A DNA stretch of 7,464 nucleotides. It comes from Planctomycetaceae bacterium (GTDB lineage: Bacteria; Planctomycetota; Phycisphaerae; Phycisphaerales; SM1A02). Positions 4,065 to 7,464 of this stretch are shown here, one piece after another. The notes below the pieces were generated by a model. That model made no database searches and had not been told where the DNA came from. It saw only the letters and a program-made list of their open reading frames with translations. Within the stretch, counting starts at the first letter, position 1, and the number at the start of each line of letters is the position of its first letter. The stretch is taken from the NCBI GenBank assembly GCA_002684315.1, contig NYVB01000131.1, forward strand, positions 1 to 7,464, read 5' to 3'. A program made the translations under genes and the position numbers.

Positions 4065-4092
4065 ATAATCTAATAATACATCTAAAAGTCAC

Positions 4093-4126
4093 CAAGTTAG
4101 CCCAAATGTGTCTAACTTGTTTTTTT
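4093..4126 (+). terminator. Rho-independent terminator after the PhoD-like gene
   Basis: CAAGTTAG (4093-4100) pairs perfectly with CTAACTTG (4112-4119) around an 11-base loop and is followed at once by seven T (4120-4126). It lies 28 bases past the TAA stop and separates the phosphatase transcript from parB. The stem is not very GC-rich, so efficiency is uncertain. Confidence 0.8.
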
Positions 4127-4162
4127 ATTAAATACCTACAGCAGATGTGTTTAGCGTGTTTT
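4106..4162 (+). repeat. Imperfect 18-bp direct repeat, offset 39 bp
   Basis: ATGTGTCTAACTTGTTTT (4106-4123) and ATGTGTTTAGCGTGTTTT (4145-4162) agree at 15 of 18 bases. The first copy is partly inside the terminator. It may be a small local duplication; no function is apparent. Confidence 0.4.
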
Positions 4163-4196: not shown

Positions 4197-4225
4197 TTGA
4201 CGTTCCACGTGGAACGTGAGATATT
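4197..4225 (+). promoter_or_regulatory. Candidate parB promoter with parS in its spacer
   Basis: TTGACG (4197-4202, 5 of 6) is followed after 17 bases by GATATT (4220-4225, 4 of 6). Transcription would begin near 4232, about 40 bases before the parB start. The palindrome at 4200-4217 covers the end of the -35 and almost the whole spacer, so ParB bound there should block RNA polymerase. The promoter itself is inferred. Confidence 0.5.
4200..4217. promoter_or_regulatory. parS: parS centromere-like site (perfect 18-bp palindrome)
   Basis: ACGTTCCACGTGGAACGT is a perfect palindrome. Its 14-base core GTTCCACGTGGAAC equals the core of the Pseudomonas-type parS (TGTTCCACGTGGAACA) and is close to the B. 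subtilis form (TGTTTCACGTGAAACA); only the two outermost bases of the 16-mer differ. It lies 55 bases upstream of a parB gene, which makes a ParB binding site the best reading. Confidence 0.88.
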
Positions 4226-4272
4226 CGCTTTCGGCGTACAGGATGTCGCGCACCTCCATGAAGGGATTCACA

Positions 4273-5478
4273 ATGGCAGAGTCTAAGAATAAGAAGTCGG
4301 GTACTGGGGTTGGTTCAAAGAATGCCGCATCTGGTGCTCCTAAAAAGAAGCGCCGTTTGGGCCGTGGTCTTGGGAGTCTTCTGAGTTCCCCGGTCGACGT
4401 GACGACTGGTGTGCCGCGTTCCACGGGGAACGCCCCTGCTCCTTCGCCCGGTGCTCAGTCTGGACGTGTGAAGTCGACTTCGCTGTCGAGTCCTGGTCTT
4501 GAAGTGCCAGGTCTTACGGATCCAGATCTTGAAGATTCAGGTCACGAGAGTTCGGGTCTCGAAAGTTCAGATCAGGGTGCGTCGGCTGCTGATTCTGGTG
4601 ATTCCCTCACCCAGTCCTCGGCCCCCCCTCTGGGTAGTGTCTCGTCTGTGGCCCACGATGGTCTGCAGGTTTCGATGATCTCGGTCGATACGGTCGTTGC
4701 CAATACCTATCAGCCCCGAGAAGACTTTGATGAGACTGCCCTTCACGAGTTGGCGGCCTCTATTGAGCGGTCAGGATTGATGCAGCCCTTGGTTGTTCGT
4801 TCCACGGGGAACACGGGAACTTGGGAGCTTGTTGCGGGGGAACGTCGGTTCAGGGCCATGAAGTTCCTGGGTCGAGATCAGGTTCCCGTGATCGCTTTGG
4901 ATGTGGATGATCAGGCTGCTGCCGAGTTGGCCTTGATAGAGAATGTTCATCGCGAGGACTTGAATCCAATCGAGCGGGCCCGGGGATTGGCTCGTTTGCG
5001 GGACACCTTTGGTTTAACTCAGAAGGCTTTGTCCGAGCGGGTTGGGCTTGATCGTTCGTCTGTCGCAAATCTTCTGCGTGTTCTGGATCTGGATGATTTT
5101 TCATTGGCGGCGGTTCGTCAGGGGACCCTTTCGCTGGGTCATGCCAAGGCCCTGTTGTCTTTGACTGATCAGGTTGTTCGCAGGGCAACTGCTGCCGCTG
5201 CGTTGAATGGTGGGTGGTCCGTTCGGGAGTTGGAGCGACGCGTTCGGTCGCTTTCCCAGGGGGACTCATTGAGTGCGCCCAAGGCAGGGGATGTAAGTCC
5301 GATAACTACACGTCAAGCGAATGTCGCTGATCTCGAAAAGCGGCTGACCGAGACTTTGGGGCTTCGTGTTCACATTGTCCTGGGCCGAAAAAAAGGCACC
5401 GGAAAAGTGCAGTTGTCATTTGAAACCTTGGAAGAGTTTGATCATCTGACTGAACGACTTGGCCTTAAAAACACGTAA
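4273..5478 (+). CDS. parB: ParB/Spo0J-family chromosome partition protein (CTPase clamp)
   Basis: A 401-residue ParB. In order: KKKRRLGRGLGSLL (24-37), the N-terminal motif that stimulates the ParA ATPase; a long Ser/Gly/Pro/Asp-rich linker (about 38-130) with a pentapeptide repeat; the CTP-binding core, with TYQPRE (145-150), GERRFRA (189-195) and ENVHREDLNPIERA (223-236); a helix-turn-helix region with TQKALSERVGLDRSSVANLL (249-268); and a C-terminal dimerisation segment (about 350-401). ParB loads at parS and spreads as a sliding clamp, working with ParA and SMC. The start is ATG 4273, preceded by AAGGGA (4261-4266) with a 6-base gap; longer in-frame starts (GTG 4216, ATG 4258) lack a ribosome site and the conserved motif is near the normal position from 4273. 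No parA lies in the window. Codon choice (many TTG and GTT) differs from the neighbours. Two parS-like sites lie inside the gene. Confidence 0.95.
   Translation: MAESKNKKSGTGVGSKNAASGAPKKKRRLGRGLGSLLSSPVDVTTGVPRSTGNAPAPSPGAQSGRVKSTSLSSPGLEVPGLTDPDLEDSGHESSGLESSDQGASAADSGDSLTQSSAPPLGSVSSVAHDGLQVSMISVDTVVANTYQPREDFDETALHELAASIERSGLMQPLVVRSTGNTGTWELVAGERRFRAMKFLGRDQVPVIALDVDDQAAAELALIENVHREDLNPIERARGLARLRDTFGLTQKALSERVGLDRSSVANLLRVLDLDDFSLAAVRQGTLSLGHAKALLSLTDQVVRRATAAAALNGGWSVRELERRVRSLSQGDSLSAPKAGDVSPITTRQANVADLEKRLTETLGLRVHIVLGRKKGTGKVQLSFETLEEFDHLTERLGLKNT
4417..4432. promoter_or_regulatory. parS-like site inside parB, copy 1
   Basis: CGTTCCACGGGGAACG differs from the promoter parS 16-mer (4201-4216) at one base: G for T at position 10. 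It encodes Arg-Ser-Thr-Gly-Asn (residues 49-53) in the disordered linker. The left half site is intact; the right half has the single change. Confidence 0.55.
4492..4581 (+). repeat. 15-bp in-frame tandem repeat, about six units
   Basis: Six consecutive 15-base units start with CCTGGTCTTGAAGTG and end near 4581, with consensus close to YCAGGTCTTGAAGWT. They encode degenerate pentapeptides PGLEV, PGLTD, PDLED, SGHES, SGLES, SDQGA (residues 74-103) in the ParB linker. The last unit is the most diverged. Confidence 0.65.
4798..4813. promoter_or_regulatory. parS-like site inside parB, copy 2
   Basis: CGTTCCACGGGGAACA shares its first 15 bases with the copy at 4417 and again encodes Arg-Ser-Thr-Gly-Asn (176-180), here in the variable loop just before the ELVAGERR block. 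Its outer right base (A) matches the canonical parS end better than copy 1. Confidence 0.55.
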
Positions 5479-6001: not shown

Positions 6002-7464
6002 ATGGGTGGTATTTCAGCAGGCGTCGGACTCATCAGCGGTATTGACACCACTGCATTGATCGAGCAATTGCTCGCCGTCGAGTCTCGAATCAAGTTTCCC
6101 ATACAGGCGAGAATCGCCCGGTTGTCAACGGCAAAATCTGCCTTGCTCGACATCAATTCCCGCCTGCTGAATCTTCAAGGCACTGCCAGTGCCTTTCGTA
6201 CGAACGATATCTTCAACTCGGTACTCGCGACCTCATCGAATCCCGATGCACTTGGCGTCTCAGCCAGTGGGGGACCTCAACCAGGCTCGTACGCGTTCAT
6301 CGTGAAACGCCTTGCCTCGAGTTCTCAGTTTCTTTCGCACGGGTTCTCCACTCGTGACAGCACGCCTCTCGGTCTTGAATCCCTTGGAATCGAACTCGGA
6401 AACGGGCGCCTCACGCGCGACCAATCGCTTTCGCAGTTGAATGGTGGTGATGGTATTCAACGCGGACGCTTCCAGATCACCGATCGTTCCGGCGGAAGTG
6501 CGGAGATCGATCTTTCGGACGCGACATCATTGAACGAGGTTATCGATGCCATCAACGGGGCTTCTGGAATCTCCATCTCCGCATCGATTTCAGGGAACGG
6601 ATTGTCTCTCGAGGATTTCTCGGGGGGCGGTGGAGCGATCACCGTCGTCGACGGCGCGGGCAACACGACGGCTTCCGATCTCGGTCTTGCCGGCACATCC
6701 TCGACGAACACGCTGGCTGGATCGGACATCAATCGACTTGGGATGAACAGCACGCTGTCATCACTGAACGATGGTCGCGGTGTGTTGGTTCGTGACGGGG
6801 TCAGTGATTTCACGCTCACCGTCGGCCCCAACGATTTCGACGTCGACCTCGGCCGCGTCGACTCACCGATCACCGGTGAAACCTTGCTTGAAAAACTCAA
6901 CAACGGTGATGGTGTCGCCATCAACGACGATCCTGAACAAGCTGACTTCACCATCGTCTCTTCCACGGGAGTCTCCGTCACGATCGACCTCGGTAGAGTC
7001 CTCGATGATGACGGCCTGACCATCCAGGATGAAGTGGAAACCGTTCAGGACCTCATCGACCGCGTGAACGGTGCGCTGGCTGAAGAGTTCGGTGCGGGTG
7101 GTGTCACGCTGACTCTCAACGACGACGCAAACGGGTTCGTGGTCAACGACACACTTGCCGGACCCGATGAACTGATCGTCGAGGGCGAAGGCATCGGTGG
7201 TGATTCGACCGCTCAGGATCTTGGAATACTGGGAACCGCAGTGTCCGGCACTCTGCAGGGAGACGTGCTTCGTAACGAAGTCCAGACGGCTCGGGCGACC
7301 ACGATCGAAGATCTCGCACAACGAGTGAACGACGCCACGGGTGGAAGGGCGTTCGTCAACATCTCCGCCGACGGTCAGGGCATCGAGTTCTCTGCGGGTG
7401 GTTTTTCCCTTTCAGTGTCGGAGGGTTCACCGGGCTTCACCGGTGATGCCGCGGACATTCCCAC
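6002..7464 (+). CDS. fliD: Flagellar hook-associated protein 2 (filament cap), 5' part
   Basis: The frame is open from ATG 6002 to the right edge: 487 codons, no stop, 3' end missing. AGGAG (5991-5995), 6 bases before the ATG, fixes the start. FliD is exported by the flagellar type III system and forms the cap under which flagellin subunits are added. The N-terminus fits the FliD_N domain: GISAGVGLISGIDTTALIEQ, then a helical stretch (ESRIKFPIQARIARLSTAKS; LLDINSRLLNLQG) and GSYAFIVKRLASSSQF. No cleaved signal is expected or seen. The middle has several flagellin-IN-like units, each an Ile/Leu-rich helix with a following strand pair: SLNEVIDAINGASG (about 176), GETLLEKLNNGDG (about 292), TVQDLIDRVNGA (about 347) and TIEDLAQRVNDATGG (about 434). 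The motif DLG(L/I)xGT also recurs. Such repeat-rich FliD is seen in large variants, and the C-terminal FliD_C domain should lie beyond the window. Confidence 0.93.
   Translation, partial: MGGISAGVGLISGIDTTALIEQLLAVESRIKFPIQARIARLSTAKSALLDINSRLLNLQGTASAFRTNDIFNSVLATSSNPDALGVSASGGPQPGSYAFIVKRLASSSQFLSHGFSTRDSTPLGLESLGIELGNGRLTRDQSLSQLNGGDGIQRGRFQITDRSGGSAEIDLSDATSLNEVIDAINGASGISISASISGNGLSLEDFSGGGGAITVVDGAGNTTASDLGLAGTSSTNTLAGSDINRLGMNSTLSSLNDGRGVLVRDGVSDFTLTVGPNDFDVDLGRVDSPITGETLLEKLNNGDGVAINDDPEQADFTIVSSTGVSVTIDLGRVLDDDGLTIQDEVETVQDLIDRVNGALAEEFGAGGVTLTLNDDANGFVVNDTLAGPDELIVEGEGIGGDSTAQDLGILGTAVSGTLQGDVLRNEVQTARATTIEDLAQRVNDATGGRAFVNISADGQGIEFSAGGFSLSVSEGSPGFTGDAADIP

Follow-up and report, generated by a model that had tools for sequence, protein, structure and literature searches.

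The parB locus and its parS-like sites

The window, the whole stretch of 7,464 nucleotides analyzed here, contains the end of a YtoQ-family gene, genes for a carbon-nitrogen hydrolase and a PhoD-like phosphatase, parB, and the start of fliD. The parB coding sequence (4273..5478, + strand) specifies 401 amino acids in which the ParB_N, HTH_ParB, and ParB_C domains all scored above their Pfam cut-offs; the protein reached 150.6 bits against TIGR00180 (cut-off, 58.45) and, used as a query by sequence, retrieved ParB structures. The top NCBIfam model was nucleoid_noc, yet its score of 195.5 bits lay below the cut-off of 315. The specificity residues of chromosomal ParB are present as Arg (R261) and Gly (G289), positions that we take to be Caulobacter R173 and G201, the register being that of a Caulobacter stretch. 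With R and G instead of Q and R, and with the nucleoid_noc score below the cut-off, identity as Noc was rejected. No parA was found next to parB among the open reading frames and Pfam matches of the window; a parA gene usually, but not obligatorily, adjoins a chromosomal parB. PADLOC returned weak domain matches only. Between the PhoD-like gene and parB, a terminator-like hairpin at 4090-4127 (caagttag ... ctaacttg and then a T run) was spotted by eye; it is absent from the output of the hairpin scan, whose loop limit was 8.

Three parS-like sites lie at this locus. Site 1 (4202..4215, no strand assigned), 5' of parB, is a perfect parS core, GTTCCACGTGGAAC, and has a perfect or G-form counterpart in the relatives L001 to L004. 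Site 2 (4417..4431, + strand) and site 3 (4798..4812, + strand) lie within the gene and are copies of the 15-mer CGTTCCACGGGGAAC, that is, the cores GTTCCACGGGGAAC at 4418-4431 and 4799-4812 together with the preceding C. Both read CGT TCC ACG GGG AAC and encode RSTGN, at codons 49-53 and 176-180, respectively. Measured against the parS core palindrome GTTYCACGTGRAAC, site 1 is exact and sites 2 and 3 deviate at one base, the T-to-G change that defines the G form. The sequence-only reading of this DNA had described an exact 15-base repeat in parB, in one codon phase and encoding RSTGN, and three sites in about 610 bases; the coordinates and the peptide were confirmed, and the span from 4202 to 4812 is 611 bases. 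Another match in the window, with three mismatches at 6295, was taken as chance.

The two in-gene copies had also been placed in a disordered linker and a variable loop, and both placements agree with our results. In an AlphaFold2 model of the window ParB (15 sequences; mean pLDDT, 73.6), pLDDT was below 50 at residues 53-73, 77-85, and 87-129, and site 2 opens this low-confidence N-terminal linker. Site 3 falls at the beta-hairpin of the N-terminal domain that joins strands 173-177 and 184-188, and this hairpin varies in both length and sequence among 96 aligned ParBs.

A promoter is predicted upstream of the gene (4197..4225, + strand), with TTGACG at 4197-4202, a 17-base spacer, and GATATT at 4220-4225; it matches the consensus at 9/12 positions, and the shuffled region averages 0.6 such matches. 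Site 1 covers the last base of TTGACG and most of the spacer. Among all loci examined, the arrangement TTGAC-site-RTGnGATA was found in the window, in L001 to L004, and in G203, G086, and G370. Because site 1 fills the spacer of the predicted promoter, ParB probably represses its own gene through this site.

Distribution of the sites among relatives

A contig scan for relatives yielded 49 loci. L001 to L004 (Phycisphaerae / Planctomycetes) showed best-segment identities to the window of 58-75%; L001 and L002 retain the full set of three, and L003 and L004 retain an upstream site and the hairpin site, all in the G form. The contig of the closest relative, L005 (96%), starts inside parB at residue 238, just beyond the parS cluster, and does not cover the sites. 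When the whole genomes of nine relatives (1.4-3.0 Mb) were searched for the exact pattern GTTCCACGKGGAAC, eight contained it, at 18 distinct places, all 18 of them at the parB locus; the reversed control gave no match in any of the nine. In the ninth genome, which lacks the pattern, the parB contig opens at residue 238, past the sites. A chance repeat, judged unlikely from the sequence alone, was rejected on these counts, and the genome scan proposed at that time now indicates that the sites at parB account for all, or almost all, genomic copies in relatives.

The search was widened to 201 genomes from one order-level group, 191 of which have a ParB match. The pattern GTTCCMCGKGGAAC was present in 153 of the 201, and its reversed control occurred once each in 8; since the remaining 48 have no exact match, the parS-in-parB layout is not universal. 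Among 95 genomes whose parB locus was available, 136 of 149 sites were at parB (from 700 bases before to 200 after the open parB frame) and 13 were elsewhere. Any site was found in 79 of these genomes, exactly two in 55, and 68 had all of their sites at parB, a lack of sites elsewhere that is provisional, since many of the 95 are drafts. The window and these 95 genomes (30 loci; 60 more, G047 having been skipped; and G002, G003, G006, G008, and G009) make up what we call the first set. Genome totals were taken from the 201-genome search, except for G002, G003, G006, and G008, whose totals come from the nine-genome search with a pattern that omits the double variant. One to three parS-like sites per genome is usual; G111 has 24, spread over many contigs, G204 has 22, G184 has 13, and G088 has 8.

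Codon phase and the form of the site

The consequence of the T-to-G change for the protein depends on the phase in which the site is read. Read in phase 1, the perfect site is nGT TCC ACG TGG AAC, with a Trp codon; at that codon, the forward G form carries GGG, encoding Gly, and the reverse G form, GTTCCCCGTGGAAC, would retain Trp. In phase 0, every form encodes VPRGT and the change is synonymous. The first set contained, in phase 1, 21 forward G forms, 1 double variant, 1 perfect site, and no reverse form (G in 22/23); in phase 0, 9 perfect, 2 forward, and 5 reverse; and upstream of parB, 71 perfect, 7 forward, and 11 reverse. Fisher tests on perfect versus other sites separated phase 1 from upstream (p = 1.8e-11) and from phase 0 (p = 4e-4), and tests on forward versus reverse forms did likewise (p = 1.9e-5 and p = 2e-4, respectively), although all of these p-values are too small, since loci of one lineage are not independent. 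Eleven genomes of the first set have both upstream and phase-1 sites: nine carry T upstream and G in the gene, two carry G in both, and none shows the opposite.

The phase rule was predicted in writing before 60 new loci (59 genomes) were retrieved; G005 was excluded from them because its parB is cut. Thirteen of 14 phase-1 sites were forward G forms, as predicted, and the other was perfect; all 15 phase-0 sites were perfect; and upstream sites comprised 45 perfect, 4 forward, and 5 reverse. For G versus T at the position, phase 1 differed from upstream with p = 1e-9 and from phase 0 with p = 2e-7, values that are again too small for the reason given above. Among the eight new genomes with both kinds of site, four were as predicted, four were self-consistent, and none was opposite. 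When the two sets were pooled, the forward G form accounted for 34/37 phase-1 sites (plus one double variant) versus 2/31 phase-0 sites; G116 in the first set and G226 among the new loci are the phase-1 exceptions that keep Trp. These counts omit sites without an assigned start (11 in the first set: 5 perfect, 5 forward, and 1 reverse; 7 in the new loci, all perfect), as well as one-mismatch sites, of which the new loci have 13, including 6 in-gene sites in phase 2. In a rapid ParB phylogeny of the first set, made with the loop omitted, phase-1 sites occupy about five lineages and require at least six changes; several of the new loci come from lineages that the first set had already sampled.

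The reading best supported by the counts is that the T-to-G change would be a codon compromise: because a perfect palindrome in phase 1 would place Trp (TGG) in a linker or loop, GGG (Gly) would avoid this residue and keep one half-site perfect. A codon-phase rule for the form of parS appears to be new; our literature search, with most subscription journals outside its reach, found no paper on parS and codon phase. Phase 2 also provided some observations. A one-mismatch near-parS sequence is read in this phase at the conserved start of the N-terminal domain, (I/L)(P/H)VEQ, in L006 (2437), L063 (1773), L066 (1587), and L068 (1509), and likewise in L170, L171, and L175; it could be either a chance product of the protein motif or a budding site. 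The sequence GTTCCACGAGGAAC is read in phase 2 (FHEE) 425 bases into parB in L189, L215, and L228, each of which also has two phase-1 sites; it is perhaps the same sort of codon compromise in a third phase.

The shared T-to-G change had instead been suggested to mark a weaker class of site, which would tune ParB loading. There are reasons to consider this. In Pseudomonas aeruginosa, parS7-9, which are altered at the same position and have a second mismatch, are bound more weakly than perfect sites and cannot stand in for them, and an intact CACGTG core is found to matter for ParB affinity (PMC4368675). Jalal et al. tie the C at half-site position 6 in Noc to Arg201 with a permissive Lys (PMC7383237); in the Caulobacter-based register, the window ParB has Gly where they have Arg201. 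Given the missing Arg and the P. aeruginosa core data, the G form may still bind more weakly, and in the window it is the promoter site that is perfect. However, the form tracks codon phase in the pooled counts, and G forms are also found upstream of parB (18/89 in the first set). Furthermore, 20 genomes of the first set carry solely G-type sites at parB, and GTTYCACGTGRAAC occurs nowhere in any of them (0/20), which favors a fully used site. We therefore do not retain the weaker-class suggestion and regard it as unlikely, while noting that the two accounts, codon choice and weaker binding, could hold side by side. A comparison of the 20 G-only genomes with 44 T-only genomes gave no clear support for the four specificity residues as the cause of the G form: RLEG or RLDG was present in 15/20 and 23/44, respectively, and RIHG in three G-only genomes of a single lineage and in no T-only genome.

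Function of the cluster and comparison with known systems

Matches to ParA-like (AAA_31) and ScpA proteins were found in all 10 relatives searched. The top ParA-like match was on a contig other than that of parB in 9/10 and lay 17 kb from parB in G042; since AAA_31 also spans MinD-like proteins, ParA is only the likely name for these matches. A switch in GC skew is expected at a replication origin, and parS is typically near the origin. In G042, the sole relative examined for its origin (one contig, 3.84 Mb), GC skew over 20 sampled stretches changed sign, negative to positive, in the interval 1.40-1.50 Mb; the positions of dnaA and parB are 1.402 Mb and 1.556 Mb, respectively. The three sites very probably constitute a single parS cluster that is carried by parB itself and is the centromere of the chromosome. 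ParB would load on each of the three sites as a CTP clamp and spread over parB, ParA encoded elsewhere would move the ParB-parS complex, SMC-ScpAB would be loaded at the cluster, and occupancy of site 1 within the promoter would repress parB.

It is conceivable that the sites mainly regulate parB, as a promoter operator and in-gene roadblocks, rather than serve as a centromere, and the position of site 1 in the predicted promoter spacer, shared by five genomes of the clade and three others, would suit such a role. Yet few or no other such sites exist genome-wide while the ParB, ParA-like, and ScpA genes are present, so that these sites should also be the centromere, and the in-gene sites lie up to 955 bases into parB; a mainly regulatory role is thus quite improbable.

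We also asked how the in-gene sequence is conserved, using a codon alignment of the window and G001 to G004 with 180 degenerate columns outside site 3 in which one amino acid is kept throughout. At site 3, 5/5 codons are identical among the five genomes, versus 8/180 of the other amino-acid-conserved codons, and the 15-mer of site 3 is the longest run identical in parB across the five. The comparison covered site 3 alone; site 2 is kept at the same place in G001 and G002 and is absent from G003 and G004. To judge from these codon identities, the hairpin copy is selected as DNA, and for this copy the earlier proposal that the DNA is kept beyond amino-acid needs holds. The opposite pattern, RSTGN retained with its synonymous bases free to vary, was absent in the five genomes; two further clade members, G077 (GTTCCCCGGGGAAC, RSPGN) and G140 (GTTCTACGGGGAAC), deviate at site 3 by single bases only.

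Other genomes carry their sites either within the N-terminal linker or within, or close to, the linker that leads into the C-terminal domain; these are frequently read in phase 0, encoding VPRGT, and G191 has a phase-0 site inside the same hairpin that holds the phase-1 site of the window's clade. Such sites therefore recur in parB of other lineages in two codon phases, RSTGN and VPRGT, and since one DNA sequence in two phases yields two unrelated peptides, the protein does not explain it. A repeated protein motif, RSTGN, with the DNA repeat as its by-product, was rejected as scarcely credible: the two copies agree in reading phase and peptide, but the codons of site 3 are identical, RSTGN at the hairpin is limited to 6/96 ParBs, every one from the window's clade, the same DNA elsewhere encodes another peptide in another phase, and the upstream perfect site encodes nothing in parB.

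The second-longest run identical in the five parB genes is AGTCCGATAAC (window positions 5296-5306), in the linker before the C-terminal domain; within this region, GTCCGATAAC is present in 7/7 members of the window's clade. A similar sequence, AGTCCGAGAAC, directly precedes the upstream parS sites of another clade. The AGTCCGATAAC/AGTCCGAGAAC pattern was not enriched in nine genomes, with 26 matches versus 28 for the reversed control.

For the order-level group, a joint reading can be proposed, for and against which we find the balance about even. Here, parB would be a self-marking centromere gene, with parS co-evolving with its coding sequence and sites shifting among the N-terminal linker, the hairpin, and the C-terminal linker. 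Coding would set the form of the site, G in phase 1 and perfect in phase 0; if coding thus decides the form of the centromere, the cognate ParB should read the G form as a full site, with tolerance at position 6 reached without a Noc-type change. Promoter site 1 would act as a sensor of the ParB level. One DNA element would then be both centromere and codons, and comparing phase 0 with phase 1 would offer a natural control for telling the two demands apart. If this reading is true, a ParB whose specificity residues are the ordinary ones accepts C at half-site position 6, and parB-parS would be able to travel as one unit.

Our literature search on Planctomycetes / Phycisphaer found no parS study, and the accessible part of PMC5352709 makes no mention of parS. 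A parS site inside parB is already known: Bacillus subtilis parS-359 is located within the coding sequence of parB (spo0J; PMC4442127), as sites 2 and 3 are here. In contrast to B. subtilis, the locus described here has two in-gene copies and one promoter copy, the G form in phase 1, and relatives with few or no sites elsewhere. P. aeruginosa parS1-parS10 share the core GTTCCACGTGGAAC, and nine of the ten are predicted in coding sequences (PMC4368675); however, those ten sites lie along the chromosome, with no single cluster at parB, and the deviating sites are weaker and no substitute for perfect ones (PMC4368675). In Mycobacterium bovis BCG, one parS lies in a par gene and another overlaps the -10 box of the gidB promoter, where repression by ParB was proposed (PMC2346475), but the host gene is parA and the core sequence is different. 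The repABC systems place parS at the 5' end of repB, inside or beside the gene for its own binding protein (PMC9040568), although these are plasmid or chromid systems with another parS consensus. Finally, the G form resembles the Noc-binding site (NBS) in having C at position 6 in one of its halves (PMC7383237); it differs from the NBS at position 1, where it has the G of parS, and in the Caulobacter-based register the window protein has R and G where Noc has Q and R.
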